In this document: piece after piece, positions 8,076 through 54,401 of the stretch
Layout: the number at the start of each line of letters is the position of its first letter
How positions within the stretch are numbered: position 1 is the first letter of the stretch
NCBI GenBank assembly: GCA_019686135.1
Contig: JADGHL010000010.1
Coordinates: 1 to 64,000, forward strand
Direction: 5' to 3'
Length of the DNA stretch: 64,000 nt
From: Myxococcaceae bacterium
GTDB taxonomy: Bacteria > Myxococcota > Myxococcia > Myxococcales > Myxococcaceae
Program-made: the position numbers and the translations under genes
The notes under the pieces: generated by a model
What the model was told of the DNA's origin: nothing
Database searches by the model: none
The model's input: the letters and a program-made list of their open reading frames with translations, nothing else

Positions 8076-9388
8076 CGAGGCGGCCGGTGGACGGGAACGC
8101 TCCGGACCTCGAGCGCGATGTCGCCGCGGAAACGAACCGTGCGACCGGAGAGGCGACTGCAGCCGCGGCCGCCACCGCTCCGGACGCGCGCACACGCGGC
8201 GATTCGACACGCACGGTGGACGCGACCACGACCGCCGCGTCGGAGACACGTGCCACACGCCGCGATTCGGCGCAGGAGCAGGATGCGGCCGCCAGCCAGC
8301 GCTCGACACGCGGAACGGAGGAATCCACCCAGGCCGCGCGCAATGCGATGACGCCCGCCACGGGCGCCACGGCCCCGGGTGAACGCCCCCACCTGGGCGG
8401 TAGCGGGGAAACGGGCGCCGCCGGCTCTCCACCCTCCCGCGAGCCGACTGAGCCTCCTGATGTAACGAGCAACCTCGCCCCCGGAGCTGCGGATCCGCGC
8501 GCGGCGATCGACGGAGCTCCCGCAGCGCCTCCGGCCGCTCGCGCCGCTCCGTTGCGATCGCGGAGGTGGCGCTTCCCGTTGAGGACGGCGGGCGGCCGGT
8601 TCGGCCTAGGCGTGGCGCTGGCGCTGGTGGCGACCGCGGTGTTCGCGCCAGTGCTCGCCACGCACGATCCGCGCGCAATCGACCTTGCCGCCGAACTGGC
8701 GGGGCCCGGACGTGACCACCTGTTCGGCGCGGCGGAGAACGGGGTCGATGTGCTCTCGCAAGTCGTCTACGGCGCGCGCGTCTCGCTGGTGGTGAGCGTG
8801 TTCGCCGTGCTGCTGTCCGCGGCGGTGGGCGTGACCCTTGGCGGCATCGCCGGCTACGTGGGCGGGATCGTCGACGAAGTGTTGATGCGGGTCGTCGATG
8901 TGCTGCTCGCGTTCCCCGGGATCCTGCTGGCGATCTTCATCACCGCGGTGCTCGGGCCGTCGCTGGCGAACGTGGTTTTCGCGCTGACAGTGACCGGGTG
9001 GACCGGATACGCGCGGCTGGTACGGGCGCAGATGCTCACCCTGCGCGAGCGCGACTACGTGCAGGCGGCGCGCGCACTCGGCGCGAAGGGCAACCGTATC
9101 CTCTTCCGCCACCTCCTCCCGAATGCGGCCGGGCCCATCCTCGTGCAGGCCACCTTCGCGATCCCCGGCGCGATCCTCGCCGAAGCCTCCTTGAGCTTCC
9201 TCGGCCTCGGCGCACCGCCGGGGACGCCGTCGTGGGGAGCGCTCGTCGACCAAGGCACGCAGTACCTGCTCGTGGCGCCGCACATCGCGCTGTTCCCCGG
9301 GCTCGCGATCGCTATCACCGTCCTCGGCTTCAACTTTCTCGGCGACGCGCTCCGCGACGCGCTCGACCCGAAACGGCGCGAGCGCTGA
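8072..9388 (+). CDS. ABC transporter permease, DppC/OppC family, with long disordered N-terminus
   Basis: This 438-residue protein has a permease domain only from about residue 165 on. It contains the OppC-type transmembrane helices, the [22 protein letters not shown] motif and the EAA loop ([19 protein letters not shown]). Residues 1-165 are almost entirely Ala, Thr, Arg, Pro, Glu and Gly with no predicted fold. DppC proteins are usually about 280-300 residues with a short cytoplasmic start. The ATG at 8072 overlaps the dppB-like stop (ATGA). No later start in a coding context is clearly better, so the extension appears to be translated. No ATPase gene follows. Confidence 0.88.
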
Positions 9389-50798: not shown

Positions 50799-53700
50799 GT
50801 GGCAAGCTGCCCGGGCATGTCGCGCGGGCAGTCGAATCTGGCGTTGTCGCTGGCGCTCTCGCTGGGCGTCCACGTCGTCGCGCCGGTTATCGCTCTCGCC
50901 TTCGCCGCGCTCGTCCCTTCTTCGCCGGAGCGCAACGACGACCGGCCGCCCCGCAGGCCAACGGTGCGGACGGATCCGCCGCGCGAGCTGGGCGGCGGGA
51001 TGGCGGCACACAGCTCGCGCGCGGAGGGGATTCCGGGCGCTCGGGCTTCGTCGACGTTCGAGGTGCGGCTGATCCGGCTTCCGGCTGGAGGTTGCGGTCT
51101 GAAGGATCCGGCGGACTGCGGCGGCGCTGCACCGCGCTCGGGGGATGGTTCCGTCCGGACCGTGAAGGCGGTTGCTCAGTCTAATTCCGGTGGGGGCGGG
51201 AACGAGACGGCGGCCACCGCGCCAGCGCCGGGGACCAGCCATCAGCGGCAGCAGGCCCGGGCTCGGAGCGACGAGGTTCATGGTGGGCGCCCGAGGGAGG
51301 CGACGCCGCTGAATCCCCCTGAGGCCGCGCGGCAGAGGCAGGTGACGTCCCGCCGGAAGCCGGCAATCCCGGCAGACTCGACGGCGCAGTTGTGGCTAAA
51401 GAGCGCGAAGGATGGCGATCACCTCATCGCGCCGAAGATCGAGCGCGCGGAGCACAACGACCGCTTCCGCGCGCCGGATGTCGCACACGTGGAGGACAGC
51501 GGCCGATTGAGCGCCCCTCAGATTGCTGGCGCTGAGAAAGGTGACCGACTCAAGTCACCCACCGCCACTCACGCCGAGCAAAGCGATCGTGTCGTGGTGC
51601 TTGAACTTGCTCGCATTAAGGACGGCCACAGCCTCAACGCTCGCGACTTCACTGGCGCTGAACGCGGAGATCGCGACGTCGCGCTCGAAGCCGCTCGCAC
51701 GAAGAACGGCCTTCTCAACGCGCCCAAACCCGATCGAACCGAACGTGGCGACCATTTCACCGCGGTACAGTCCGCTCACACCGAGGCCGGCGATCGCTTC
51801 AGCGCGTTCGACGCCGCTCACGGTGAGCACGGCGCTCGCGTCGCACTCGACCTTGCTCGCGCGGAGGACGGCAACCGCCTGACTGCGCCCAATATCGATC
51901 GAACCGATCGCAGCGACCGTTTCACAGCGCCCCAAGGCGCTCACACTGAGACCGGTGATCGCTTCGCCGCGCCCCCGGTCGCTGACGCCAACGATCATCG
52001 CGTCATCGCGTTCGAGTTGACTCGCTCGAAGGACGGCGCCCACCATGCCGCACCCGACGTCGAGCGAACCGAACGTGACCGCCCCAGCGCGTCCCAGACC
52101 GCTCACAGCGACGCCGGTGATCGCTTCACCCCGCTCACTGTCGGCCTCACCGACCACGGTGGTCGTCTCATCACGCTCGACCTTGCTCCCTCGAAGGACG
52201 GCGACCACTTTGACACGCCCCACATCGAGCGAACCGAACGTGACCGCCGCAGCGCACCCCAGACCGCTCACAGCGACGCCGGTGATCGCTTCACCCCGCC
52301 CACTGTCGGCCTCACCGACCACGGTGATCGTCTTATCACGCTCGACCTTGCTCCCTCGAAGGACGGCGACCACTTTGACACGCCCCACATCGAGCGAACC
52401 GAACGTGACCGCCGCAGCGCACCCCAGACCGCTCAAAGCGAGGCCGGTGATCGCTTCACCGCGCCGACCATCGACCGCCCAGACGGCGCAGTTTCCACCG
52501 CATCCCCTATCGCTCACGCGGAGACCGCCGGTCAGTTCAACAAACTCACGACGGCTGTACGGGAGCACGGCGACGAGCCCCTTCCGCCGGACGTGTCCCG
52601 TGCACACAGCCGCGATCGCTTCGTCGCGCCCGATGCCGCTCACGTAGAGCACGGCGACCGCTTCCTTGCGCCTGATGTCGCTCGCGTTGAACACCGCGAC
52701 GGCGTCGCCGCACCCGATGCTACCCGCGCGGAGCGAGGCGACCGCCTCACCGCGCCCGAAGCCGCTCGCGTAGAGCACGGCGACCGCTCCGTCGCGCCTG
52801 ATGTCCCTCGCGTTGAACGCCGCGACGGCGTCGCCGCACCCGATGCTACCCGCGCGGAACGAGGCGACCGCTTCACCGCGCCCGAAGCCGCTCGCCTAGA
52901 GCACGGCGACCGCTCCGTCGCGCCGGATGTTGCTCGCGTTGAACACCGCGACGGCGTCGCCGCACCCGATGCTACCCGCGCGGAACGAGGCGACCGCCTC
53001 GTCACACCCGATACCGTTCGCGCCGAACGCGGCGAGCGCTTCAGCGCAACCAATGCCGCTCGCGTAGAGCACGGCGACCGCTCCGTCGCGCCTGATGTCG
53101 CTCGCGTTGAGCACCGCGACGGCGTCGCCGCACCCGATGCTACCCGCGCGGAACGAGGCGACCGCCTCGTCGCACCCGATGTCGATCGCGCTGAACGAGG
53201 CGACCGCTTCAGCGCAACCAATGCCGCTCGCGTAGAGCACGGCGACCGCTCCGTCGTGCCTGATGTCGCTCGCGTTGAACACCGCGACGGCGTCGCCGCA
53301 CCCGATGCTACCCGCGCGGAACGAGGCGACCGCCTCGTCACACCCGATGTCGATCGCGCTGAACGCGGCGACCGCTTCAGCGCAACCAATGCCGCTCGCG
53401 TAGAGCACGGCGACCGCTCCGTCGCGCCTGATGTCGCTCGCGTTGAACACCGCGACGGCGTCGCCGCACCCGATGCTACCCGCGCGGAACGAGGCGACCG
53501 CCTCGTCGCACCCGATACCGTTCGCGCGGAACACAGCGACCACTTCGTCGCACCCGATGTCCTTCGCGCAGAGCGCGGCAACCGCTTCGCCGCGCCCGAT
53601 GTTTCCCGCGCTGAACTCGGTGACCGCTTCCTCGCGCCGCAGGTCGATCCCACACAGGATGGTGATCGCTTCATCCCGCCCGACGCCGCTCGCACGTCGG

Positions 53701-54401
53701 GATCCGAACGCTCCCCCTCGTCGCAGATCGCTCGCGCCAACCAACCTTTCACCGAGGAACTCCGTCGGGTCGCGCCGCAGTTCGAGCGGGCGCACTCACC
53801 GTGGGAGGATGCACTCGGTGGGCGGGTCCGCGAGGCGTCTCGCGTGCAGCCGCCCGGGCCCGAGGCGCCCGCTTCCGCCTCGGTGAACGCTGCTGCCATC
53901 GCATCGCCCGGATCGTCCAACGCCGCGAGTCACCCGCTCGCCGGCACGCCGGGACAGGCTTCCGGCGCGGGCGCACCCGCTCCAGTCGCGGGCCTGACGA
54001 CGAGTACGCCGGAAGGAATCAGCGGCCGTGCTGCGCAGGGTCCTCCGGACGCCGCCCGGACTCCGCCAGCCGCCCCCATCCCGCGGGGAGGCGGGGCCGG
54101 CGTCATCCCCGGCGCCGGGGAGCTCGGGCGGGGAGATCCCACCGAAGCCCTGGTGATCGAGCGGATCACCCACGTGGTCTCGCTCTTCGTCGGTGAGGAG
54201 AAGATCCGGGCACAGGGGAAGCGCCACGCGCTGATCCGCCTGCACATCGACGCGCGCGGTTACGTCCAGGGCTACGAGCTGCGCGAGTCCTCGCAGGTGC
54301 GCGAGTTCGACGAGGCCATCGAACCCATCCTCCACCTCGCCGAGCCGTTCCCGGTCAGCGAGCGCACCTACGAATTCACCCTTCCCTTCGCCGTCCGCTG
54401 A
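50799..54401 (+). CDS. Giant TonB-like protein with central 14-residue repeat array
   Basis: This protein is about 1,200 residues, five times a usual TonB. A transmembrane anchor lies near the N-terminus (NLALSLALSLGVHVVAPVIALAFAAL), as in TonB. A Pro/Arg/Ser segment follows to about residue 200. Then come about 54 tandem units of 14 residues (about 51400-53690) with consensus [AV]-E-[RH]-G-D-R-x-x-A-P-[DE]-x-x-R, and a Pro/Ala/Gly linker. The C-terminal domain of about 85 residues (VIERITHVVSLFVGEEKI, RLHIDARGYVQGYEL, YEFTLPFAVR) matches a TonB/TonB-like C-terminus. The repeats replace the usual Pro-rich periplasmic spacer. Start codons: GTG 50799 (GGAG at 8 nt), GTG 50790 or ATG 50817. Confidence 0.82.
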   Translation: MASCPGMSRGQSNLALSLALSLGVHVVAPVIALAFAALVPSSPERNDDRPPRRPTVRTDPPRELGGGMAAHSSRAEGIPGARASSTFEVRLIRLPAGGCGLKDPADCGGAAPRSGDGSVRTVKAVAQSNSGGGGNETAATAPAPGTSHQRQQARARSDEVHGGRPREATPLNPPEAARQRQVTSRRKPAIPADSTAQLWLKSAKDGDHLIAPKIERAEHNDRFRAPDVAHVEDSGRLSAPQIAGAEKGDRLKSPTATHAEQSDRVVVLELARIKDGHSLNARDFTGAERGDRDVALEAARTKNGLLNAPKPDRTERGDHFTAVQSAHTEAGDRFSAFDAAHGEHGARVALDLARAEDGNRLTAPNIDRTDRSDRFTAPQGAHTETGDRFAAPPVADANDHRVIAFELTRSKDGAHHAAPDVERTERDRPSASQTAHSDAGDRFTPLTVGLTDHGGRLITLDLAPSKDGDHFDTPHIERTERDRRSAPQTAHSDAGDRFTPPTVGLTDHGDRLITLDLAPSKDGDHFDTPHIERTERDRRSAPQTAQSEAGDRFTAPTIDRPDGAVSTASPIAHAETAGQFNKLTTAVREHGDEPLPPDVSRAHSRDRFVAPDAAHVEHGDRFLAPDVARVEHRDGVAAPDATRAERGDRLTAPEAARVEHGDRSVAPDVPRVERRDGVAAPDATRAERGDRFTAPEAARLEHGDRSVAPDVARVEHRDGVAAPDATRAERGDRLVTPDTVRAERGERFSATNAARVEHGDRSVAPDVARVEHRDGVAAPDATRAERGDRLVAPDVDRAERGDRFSATNAARVEHGDRSVVPDVARVEHRDGVAAPDATRAERGDRLVTPDVDRAERGDRFSATNAARVEHGDRSVAPDVARVEHRDGVAAPDATRAERGDRLVAPDTVRAEHSDHFVAPDVLRAERGNRFAAPDVSRAELGDRFLAPQVDPTQDGDRFIPPDAARTSGSERSPSSQIARANQPFTEELRRVAPQFERAHSPWEDALGGRVREASRVQPPGPEAPASASVNAAAIASPGSSNAASHPLAGTPGQASGAGAPAPVAGLTTSTPEGISGRAAQGPPDAARTPPAAPIPRGGGAGVIPGAGELGRGDPTEALVIERITHVVSLFVGEEKIRAQGKRHALIRLHIDARGYVQGYELRESSQVREFDEAIEPILHLAEPFPVSERTYEFTLPFAVR
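52062..52460 (+). repeat. 165-bp tandem repeat inside the TonB-like gene
   Basis: The segment starting GAGCGAACCGAACGTGACCG recurs at 52062, 52227 and 52392, exactly 165 bp apart, giving about 2.4 near-identical copies. Each copy encodes 55 residues (four units, one a residue short). It is separate from the 126/168-bp array downstream and probably arose by recent local duplication. Confidence 0.85.
52640..53560 (+). repeat. 42-bp unit array with 126- and 168-bp higher-order periods
   Basis: Units of 42 bp encode 14 residues. The marker GATGCTACCCGCGCGGA recurs at 52716, 52842, 52968, 53136, 53304 and 53472. Spacings are 126, 126, 168, 168 and 168 bp, which is three units then four. The longer period arises by one extra unit (containing RFSATNAAR). 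Copies are nearly identical at DNA level. Confidence 0.9.

Follow-up and report, generated by a model that had tools for sequence, protein, structure and literature searches.

The window considered here (contig JADGHL010000010.1, positions 1 to 64,000 of the forward strand, assembly GCA_019686135.1, from a Myxococcaceae bacterium; the term refers to this whole stretch of 64,000 nucleotides) contains a gene for a TonB/TolA-like protein whose middle part is largely made of tandem repeats. TonB/TolA proteins normally transmit the energy of the inner membrane to the outer one, and the best overall explanation of the gene, to which we assign a probability of roughly 0.72, is that it encodes a force transducer of this family with a flexible spacer grown by duplication. 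While this kind of transducer is already known, the extreme spacer, the conserved squalene-cyclase-like neighbour and the recurrence of spacer arrays among relatives are new.

The membrane anchor (residues 15-38) comes first in the protein and is followed by a segment of low complexity, the array of 14-residue units, a linker and a C-terminal domain (Table 1). Besides the GTG codon used here for numbering, GTG 50790 and ATG 50817 are alternative starts. Relatives are referred to below by our handles for genomes (G) and loci (L).

Table 1. Features of the transducer gene and its immediate neighbour (positions in the window).
Feature	Position	Strand	Basis or remark
TonB/TolA-like transducer gene, ~1,200 aa	50799..54401	+	frame open from anchor to C-terminal domain, no stop
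N-terminal transmembrane anchor with S-x3-H (Ser21, His25 from GTG 50799)	50841..50912	+	hydropathy 2.2
Candidate motor box strand FEVRLIRLP, residues 87-95	51057..51083	+	by eye
Array of 14-residue (42-bp) units	51417..53702	+	53 of 54 recognised units; profile segmentation, Tandem Repeats Finder, shuffle test
Three 165-bp higher-order blocks (four units, one of 13 aa)	51986..52480	+	
Degenerate stretch breaking the array	52488-52571	+	
126-bp, then 168-bp higher-order blocks (three, four units)	52698..53579	+	Tandem Repeats Finder, 945 and 1226
Single extra degenerate unit	53760..53798	+	profile segmentation
Pro/Gly-rich linker, ~16% each	53799..54125	+	composition
TonB-type C-terminal domain, predicted helix-strand-strand-helix-strand	54126..54401	+	PF13103, AlphaFold2, Foldseek
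Secreted squalene-cyclase-like protein, candidate partner, 319 aa	54452..55411	-	convergent with the transducer gene; signal-peptide-like N-terminus

The window protein belongs to the TonB/TolA family by the family of its C-terminal domain, by its anchor motif and by its fold. The Pfam profile TonB_2 (PF13103) scored 24.0 bits with the whole protein and 29.3 bits with the domain alone, the cut-off being 22. Within the family, matches at E <= 0.01 were obtained for nine of 14 members with TonB_C (PF03544) and for six with TonB_2, and the relatives L016, L062, L063 and L066 exceed the TonB_C cut-off. Comparison of the family profile with the PDB returned HasB (4.4e-6) and TonB chains; likewise, the best Foldseek matches of the AlphaFold2 model of the domain (predicted local distance difference test, pLDDT, 82; predicted template modelling score, pTM, 0.73) were HasB, Helicobacter pylori TonB and TolA. 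Strong matches of the domain profile were obtained in a small set of Myxococcota genomes, and the transducer is a member of a small Myxococcota family.

The presence of an N-terminal membrane anchor, proposed in the first-pass annotation, was borne out by hydropathy and by the motif S-x3-H in the anchor sequence ALSLALSLGVHVVAPVIALAFAAL, a motif present in all ten relatives with a readable anchor (G009, G120, G121, G122, G123, G124, G125, G127, G163 and G190). S-x3-H is the core of SHLS, the motif by which the anchor binds the motor in the TonB/TolA family, and the motor box is a strand in the disordered region following the anchor (PMC12204202). A candidate for this strand was recognised by eye in the window protein, as were comparable stretches in relatives, e.g. 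VEVELVRAE, REVQLVKLP and IEVQFFKIS. In L016 (draft 'Archangiaceae' nzgw249), genes for ExbD (48.5 bits) and ExbB (85.3 bits) lie directly downstream of the transducer gene and convergent with it (1795-2747). The genome of the window contains 11 ExbD genes above the cut-off, all on other contigs; no copy of the L016 ExbD was found in it at 1e-4. Taken together, coupling of the protein to a motor appears very probable.

Profile segmentation recognised 54 units, in agreement with the number of 14-residue (42-bp) units given in the first-pass annotation, and 45 of the 54 are ungapped exact 14-mers. The commonest residues of the unit are D-R-F-V-A-P-D-V-A-R-A-E-(H/R)-G, and identity at a lag of 42 bp was 0.572, whereas 300 shuffles of the codons gave 0.336 +/- 0.009, with a maximum of 0.360. 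Copies of the marker unit DGVAAPDATRAERG begin at 52698, 52824, 52950, 53118, 53286 and 53454, so that the spacings noted earlier (126, 126, 168, 168 and 168 bp) are exact and the satellite-like succession of three-unit and then four-unit blocks is confirmed; Tandem Repeats Finder scored the 168-bp period highest (1226), followed by 126 bp (945) and 42 bp (795). The four 168-bp blocks from 52908 onward are 89-98% identical to one another. A separate family in the first half of the array, with a period of 165 bp in 3.2 copies at 51938-52465 (Tandem Repeats Finder), had been overlooked. The organisation of the array is satellite-like, because the central units find their best match at a distance of 126, 165 or 168 bp, or a multiple of these, rather than in the neighbouring unit, and because the first and last units are far more diverged than the centre.

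The repeat unit was found at no second locus of the genome of the window. A search of 60 related genomes with the unit gave a single weak match (7e-5) at L024, in an Arg/Gly-rich repeat frame devoid of anchor and TonB domain.

With about 1,075 amino acids between anchor and domain, the spacer is about three times as long as the longest TolA domain II surveyed, in a survey in which domain II ranged from 40 to 245 residues in TonB and from 110 to 335 in TolA (PMC12204202). The corresponding spacer measures 421 amino acids in L016, and 106-259 in seven relatives without large arrays. In a survey of the phylum with TonB_2, the open frames among the best-scoring matches listed did not exceed 1018 residues, and the two longest, G027 (1018 amino acids) and G162 (771), were discarded as long transducers, being ordinary transducers of ~230 amino acids lengthened by a chance open frame. 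Our literature search on very long TonB repeats found nothing relevant.

Two relatives carry spacer arrays of their own. That of L016 has a unit of 81 bp (27 amino acids) in 3.2 copies (770-1025), and that of L091 (G124), charged and Pro-rich, has a unit of 21 bp (7 amino acids) in 14.8 copies (8480-8790) and runs off the end of the contig. Because these arrays sit at the same place as the array of the window, and their units are unrelated to the window unit, tandem arrays arose separately, and recurrently, within one transducer family.

In the TonB/TolA family, an extended domain II of polyproline or alpha-helical type is a variable and non-essential feature; in the window protein domain II is present and long. 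As to its composition, the array is 34% charged, slightly acidic and 7% Pro, with no lysine in its second half, and for the spacer the figure is 34-37% charged with a near-neutral balance; it is a charge-balanced polyampholyte, and not a Lys/Pro-rich segment. When six units were modelled with AlphaFold, no confident fold was obtained (pLDDT 54, pTM 0.11), and the spacer is probably disordered. Of the expandable charged spacer postulated in the first-pass annotation, the charge and the near-identical blocks are thus present, the arrays of the relatives speak for expansion independent across lineages, and disorder is probable. As regards the variation in copy number between strains that this annotation considered probable, no second genome of the genus was found.

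On these grounds the following mechanism can be proposed. The anchor, by means of S-x3-H and probably of the motor box, would be energised by a motor of the ExbB/ExbD type whose genes lie elsewhere in the genome, and the C-terminal domain would bind a target located at the outer membrane or close to it, or else the secreted neighbour. The spacer, equivalent to domain II, would have reached its present length by repeated in-frame duplication of the 42-bp unit and then of blocks of 126, 165 and 168 bp, presumably through recombination or slippage. In E. coli tolA, the number of repeats varies from 8 to 16 among 234 isolates, the phenotype changes with this number, and contraction is RecA-dependent (PMC3477136); a similar process would account for the blocks. 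The array itself would be a flexible, charge-balanced tether, and this role seems likely to us. The end-to-end distance of 1,075 disordered residues can be estimated as 18-33 nm for a random coil, a rough figure obtained by standard scaling with chosen constants. Far shorter stiff TonB/TolA spacers span this distance when extended, so that length may replace stiffness. In addition, by analogy with E. coli, where a disordered domain II of 127 amino acids still allows colicin import by TolA and TonB (PMC10666116), such a tether may be used for tasks resembling uptake and not for stabilisation.

Several observations weigh against this interpretation. TonB_C gave only 13.3 bits with the domain of the window protein, against a cut-off of 24.6, and the window protein alone stays under the tonB_Cterm cut-off; the Pfam model matched by the C-terminus is TonB_2, whereas the first-pass annotation had named TonB_C for the check with a hidden Markov model. 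By manual count, the L and the second S of SHLS in the window anchor depart from the E. coli spacing, and a profile search found no ExbD/TolR gene on the contig of the window. For the prediction of disorder, AlphaFold was given a shallow pseudo-alignment built from units of the array itself, and the result is consistent with disorder rather than proof of it. A disordered domain II fails to stabilise the outer membrane in TolA (PMC10666116) and, by analogy, a very long flexible spacer could transmit force poorly. Finally, the frame shows no frameshift or stop over 2.3 kb and its register is constant, but the absence of stops is too weak to be taken as proof of coding, considering that random substitutions gave only ~4 stops in a simulation. 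With so few stops expected, and with a ratio of non-synonymous to synonymous differences between units (pN/pS) of 0.81 in frame, near the 0.86-1.26 of the other five frames, any purifying selection acting on the sequence of the unit is at best weak, or undetectable.

The last point bears on what we regard as the most serious rival explanation, namely that any repeat is tolerated in the spacer as long as it is in frame; the array would then be a satellite, a by-product of duplication through recombination, devoid of a selected role other than leaving the protein intact. In addition to the pN/pS of ~0.8, this would agree with the homogenised centre and divergent edges, as in satellites, with the fact that the units of relatives are unrelated or absent, and with the spacers of 106-259 amino acids that suffice in seven relatives. 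On the other hand, repeat number matters in E. coli TolA (PMC3477136), and residues D1, R2, A5, P6, R10, E12 and G14 remain common, by profile segmentation, in old, diverged units, although shared ancestry could explain their retention. On balance, we consider a neutral array quite possible, at somewhat less than even odds. It appears unlikely, by comparison, that the array is a scaffold in which each 14-residue unit docks peptidoglycan, polysaccharide or a protein, so that many ligands are bound at once. The regular register of the charged residues, the common A-P step and the polysaccharide biosynthesis cluster upstream could be read in this sense; however, a scan of a domain library matched the array to no known repeat or domain family, the array has no confident structure, its unit is shared with no relative, and polysaccharide genes were not found linked to the transducer in the relatives examined. 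The suggestion in the first-pass annotation that the protein might bind peptidoglycan or a polymer found no supporting evidence.

It might also be argued that the length of the array reflects a collapse or an expansion during assembly, considering that the genome is a draft of 245 contigs and that the 168-bp blocks are near-identical. We consider this very unlikely, because exact direct repeats in the array region reach at most 101 bp, less than the length of common 150-base reads, and ordinary short reads could resolve the array; moreover, point changes distinguish every block, the divergence of the edge units is well above sequencing error, and arrays at the same position were found in two relatives from other genomes. 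The unit count may be slightly off, by a block or two.

A force transducer with a flexible, duplication-grown spacer can be compared with several known systems. It resembles E. coli TolA in its S-x3-H anchor, in a long domain II with tandem repeats and in the TonB/TolA fold of the C-terminus. However, the TolA repeats lie in an alpha-helical domain, whereas the window unit contains Pro and Gly, and is present in some 54 copies with higher-order blocks; moreover, tolQ, tolR, tolB and pal are not among the annotated neighbours of the window transducer. With TonB and HasB the protein shares the TonB_2/TonB_C-type domain, the best PDB and Foldseek matches and S-x3-H, and in L016 also the ExbB/ExbD genes alongside. 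Unlike in TonB, there is no Pro-Lys/Glu-Pro polyproline segment in its spacer, which also far exceeds the TonB range (PMC12204202), and no TonB-dependent receptor was identified among its annotated neighbours. Within the Myxococcota, GltG and GltJ of Myxococcus gliding motility are likewise TonB-like transducers; GltG, encoded in a glt cluster, contains an FHA domain and is an interaction partner of the ExbB-like AglR (PMC3169522). In contrast, a scan of the domain library did not find an FHA domain in the window protein, and no glt-type cluster is present among its annotated neighbours.

What stiffness and what length a TonB/TolA transducer needs in its periplasmic segment is still an open question of mechanism, to which engineered swaps in E. 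coli give a partial answer. The present family offers a natural test, in that anchors and end domains of one kind are joined by short spacers, by about 1,075 residues, or by unrelated arrays. Its reciprocal association with a secreted cyclase-like protein, in turn, provides a concrete candidate partner.

This association emerged from the gene neighbourhood. The annotated neighbours in the window are genes for a UDP-glucose dehydrogenase, an epimerase and glycosyltransferases, along with the squalene-cyclase-like gene. The polysaccharide biosynthesis cluster is indeed adjacent, upstream of the transducer gene, as the first-pass annotation had stated, but no polysaccharide genes turned up next to the relatives examined, where the recurring neighbour is the cyclase-like gene; the polysaccharide locus was accordingly dropped as a partner. 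Of 195 genomes covered by a reciprocal search, 13 hold the cyclase-like gene, and a TonB-type gene is adjacent to it in 11 of the 13, the window included (the homologues are L061, L062, L063, L065, L066, L067, L068, L072, L090 and L091; L090 was counted on a TonB_2 score of 25.8 bits, and L091, which is cut before the domain, on anchor and array). The two genes are convergent in the window and in L063, and on the same strand in the others examined. In G010, no TonB-type gene was seen near the cyclase-like gene; in G009, the two genes are on separate short contigs, with the cyclase-like gene cut at the contig end. A further exception to the pair is G002, where the domain is part of a short secreted protein that lacks an anchor.

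The neighbour scored 25.0 bits with SQHop_cyclase_C (PF13243), just below the cut-off of 26.1, and the match covers positions 143-229 of the 319 positions of the profile. In a comparison with the PDB, its family profile matched the C-terminal half of squalene-hopene cyclase and related cyclases. Unlike these full two-domain enzymes, it is a protein of about 320 amino acids with a signal-peptide-like start and only part of the C-terminal domain, and from its sequence any catalytic activity is putative. A functional link between transducer and neighbour seems somewhat favoured by their association, and the secreted squalene-cyclase-like protein is the likeliest partner; nothing relevant was found in the literature on a pairing of TonB with squalene cyclases. 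More tentatively, and with the balance rather against it, the two proteins could represent a motor-driven envelope system of Myxococcota beyond those in the papers found, in which a transducer works with a secreted cyclase-like protein, the spacer is a hypervariable locus where arrays specific to a lineage grow time and again, and unit number tunes the reach across the envelope.

Some further observations were made in other genomes. At L045 (3169-3957), the same C-terminal domain occurs on a protein of 262 amino acids with a signal-peptide-like start, and without anchor or spacer. L024 (1315-1848), in another genome of the same order, is a short tandem Arg/Gly-rich array with no TonB features. 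Near the transducer/cyclase-like pair of one family, two tandem lgt genes were found both at L065 (3582-6266, together with lspA) and at L066 (9722-11601), and the occurrence of lgt and lspA near the pair suggests a link to lipoprotein maturation. At L066, a dipeptidase gene also lies beside the pair.

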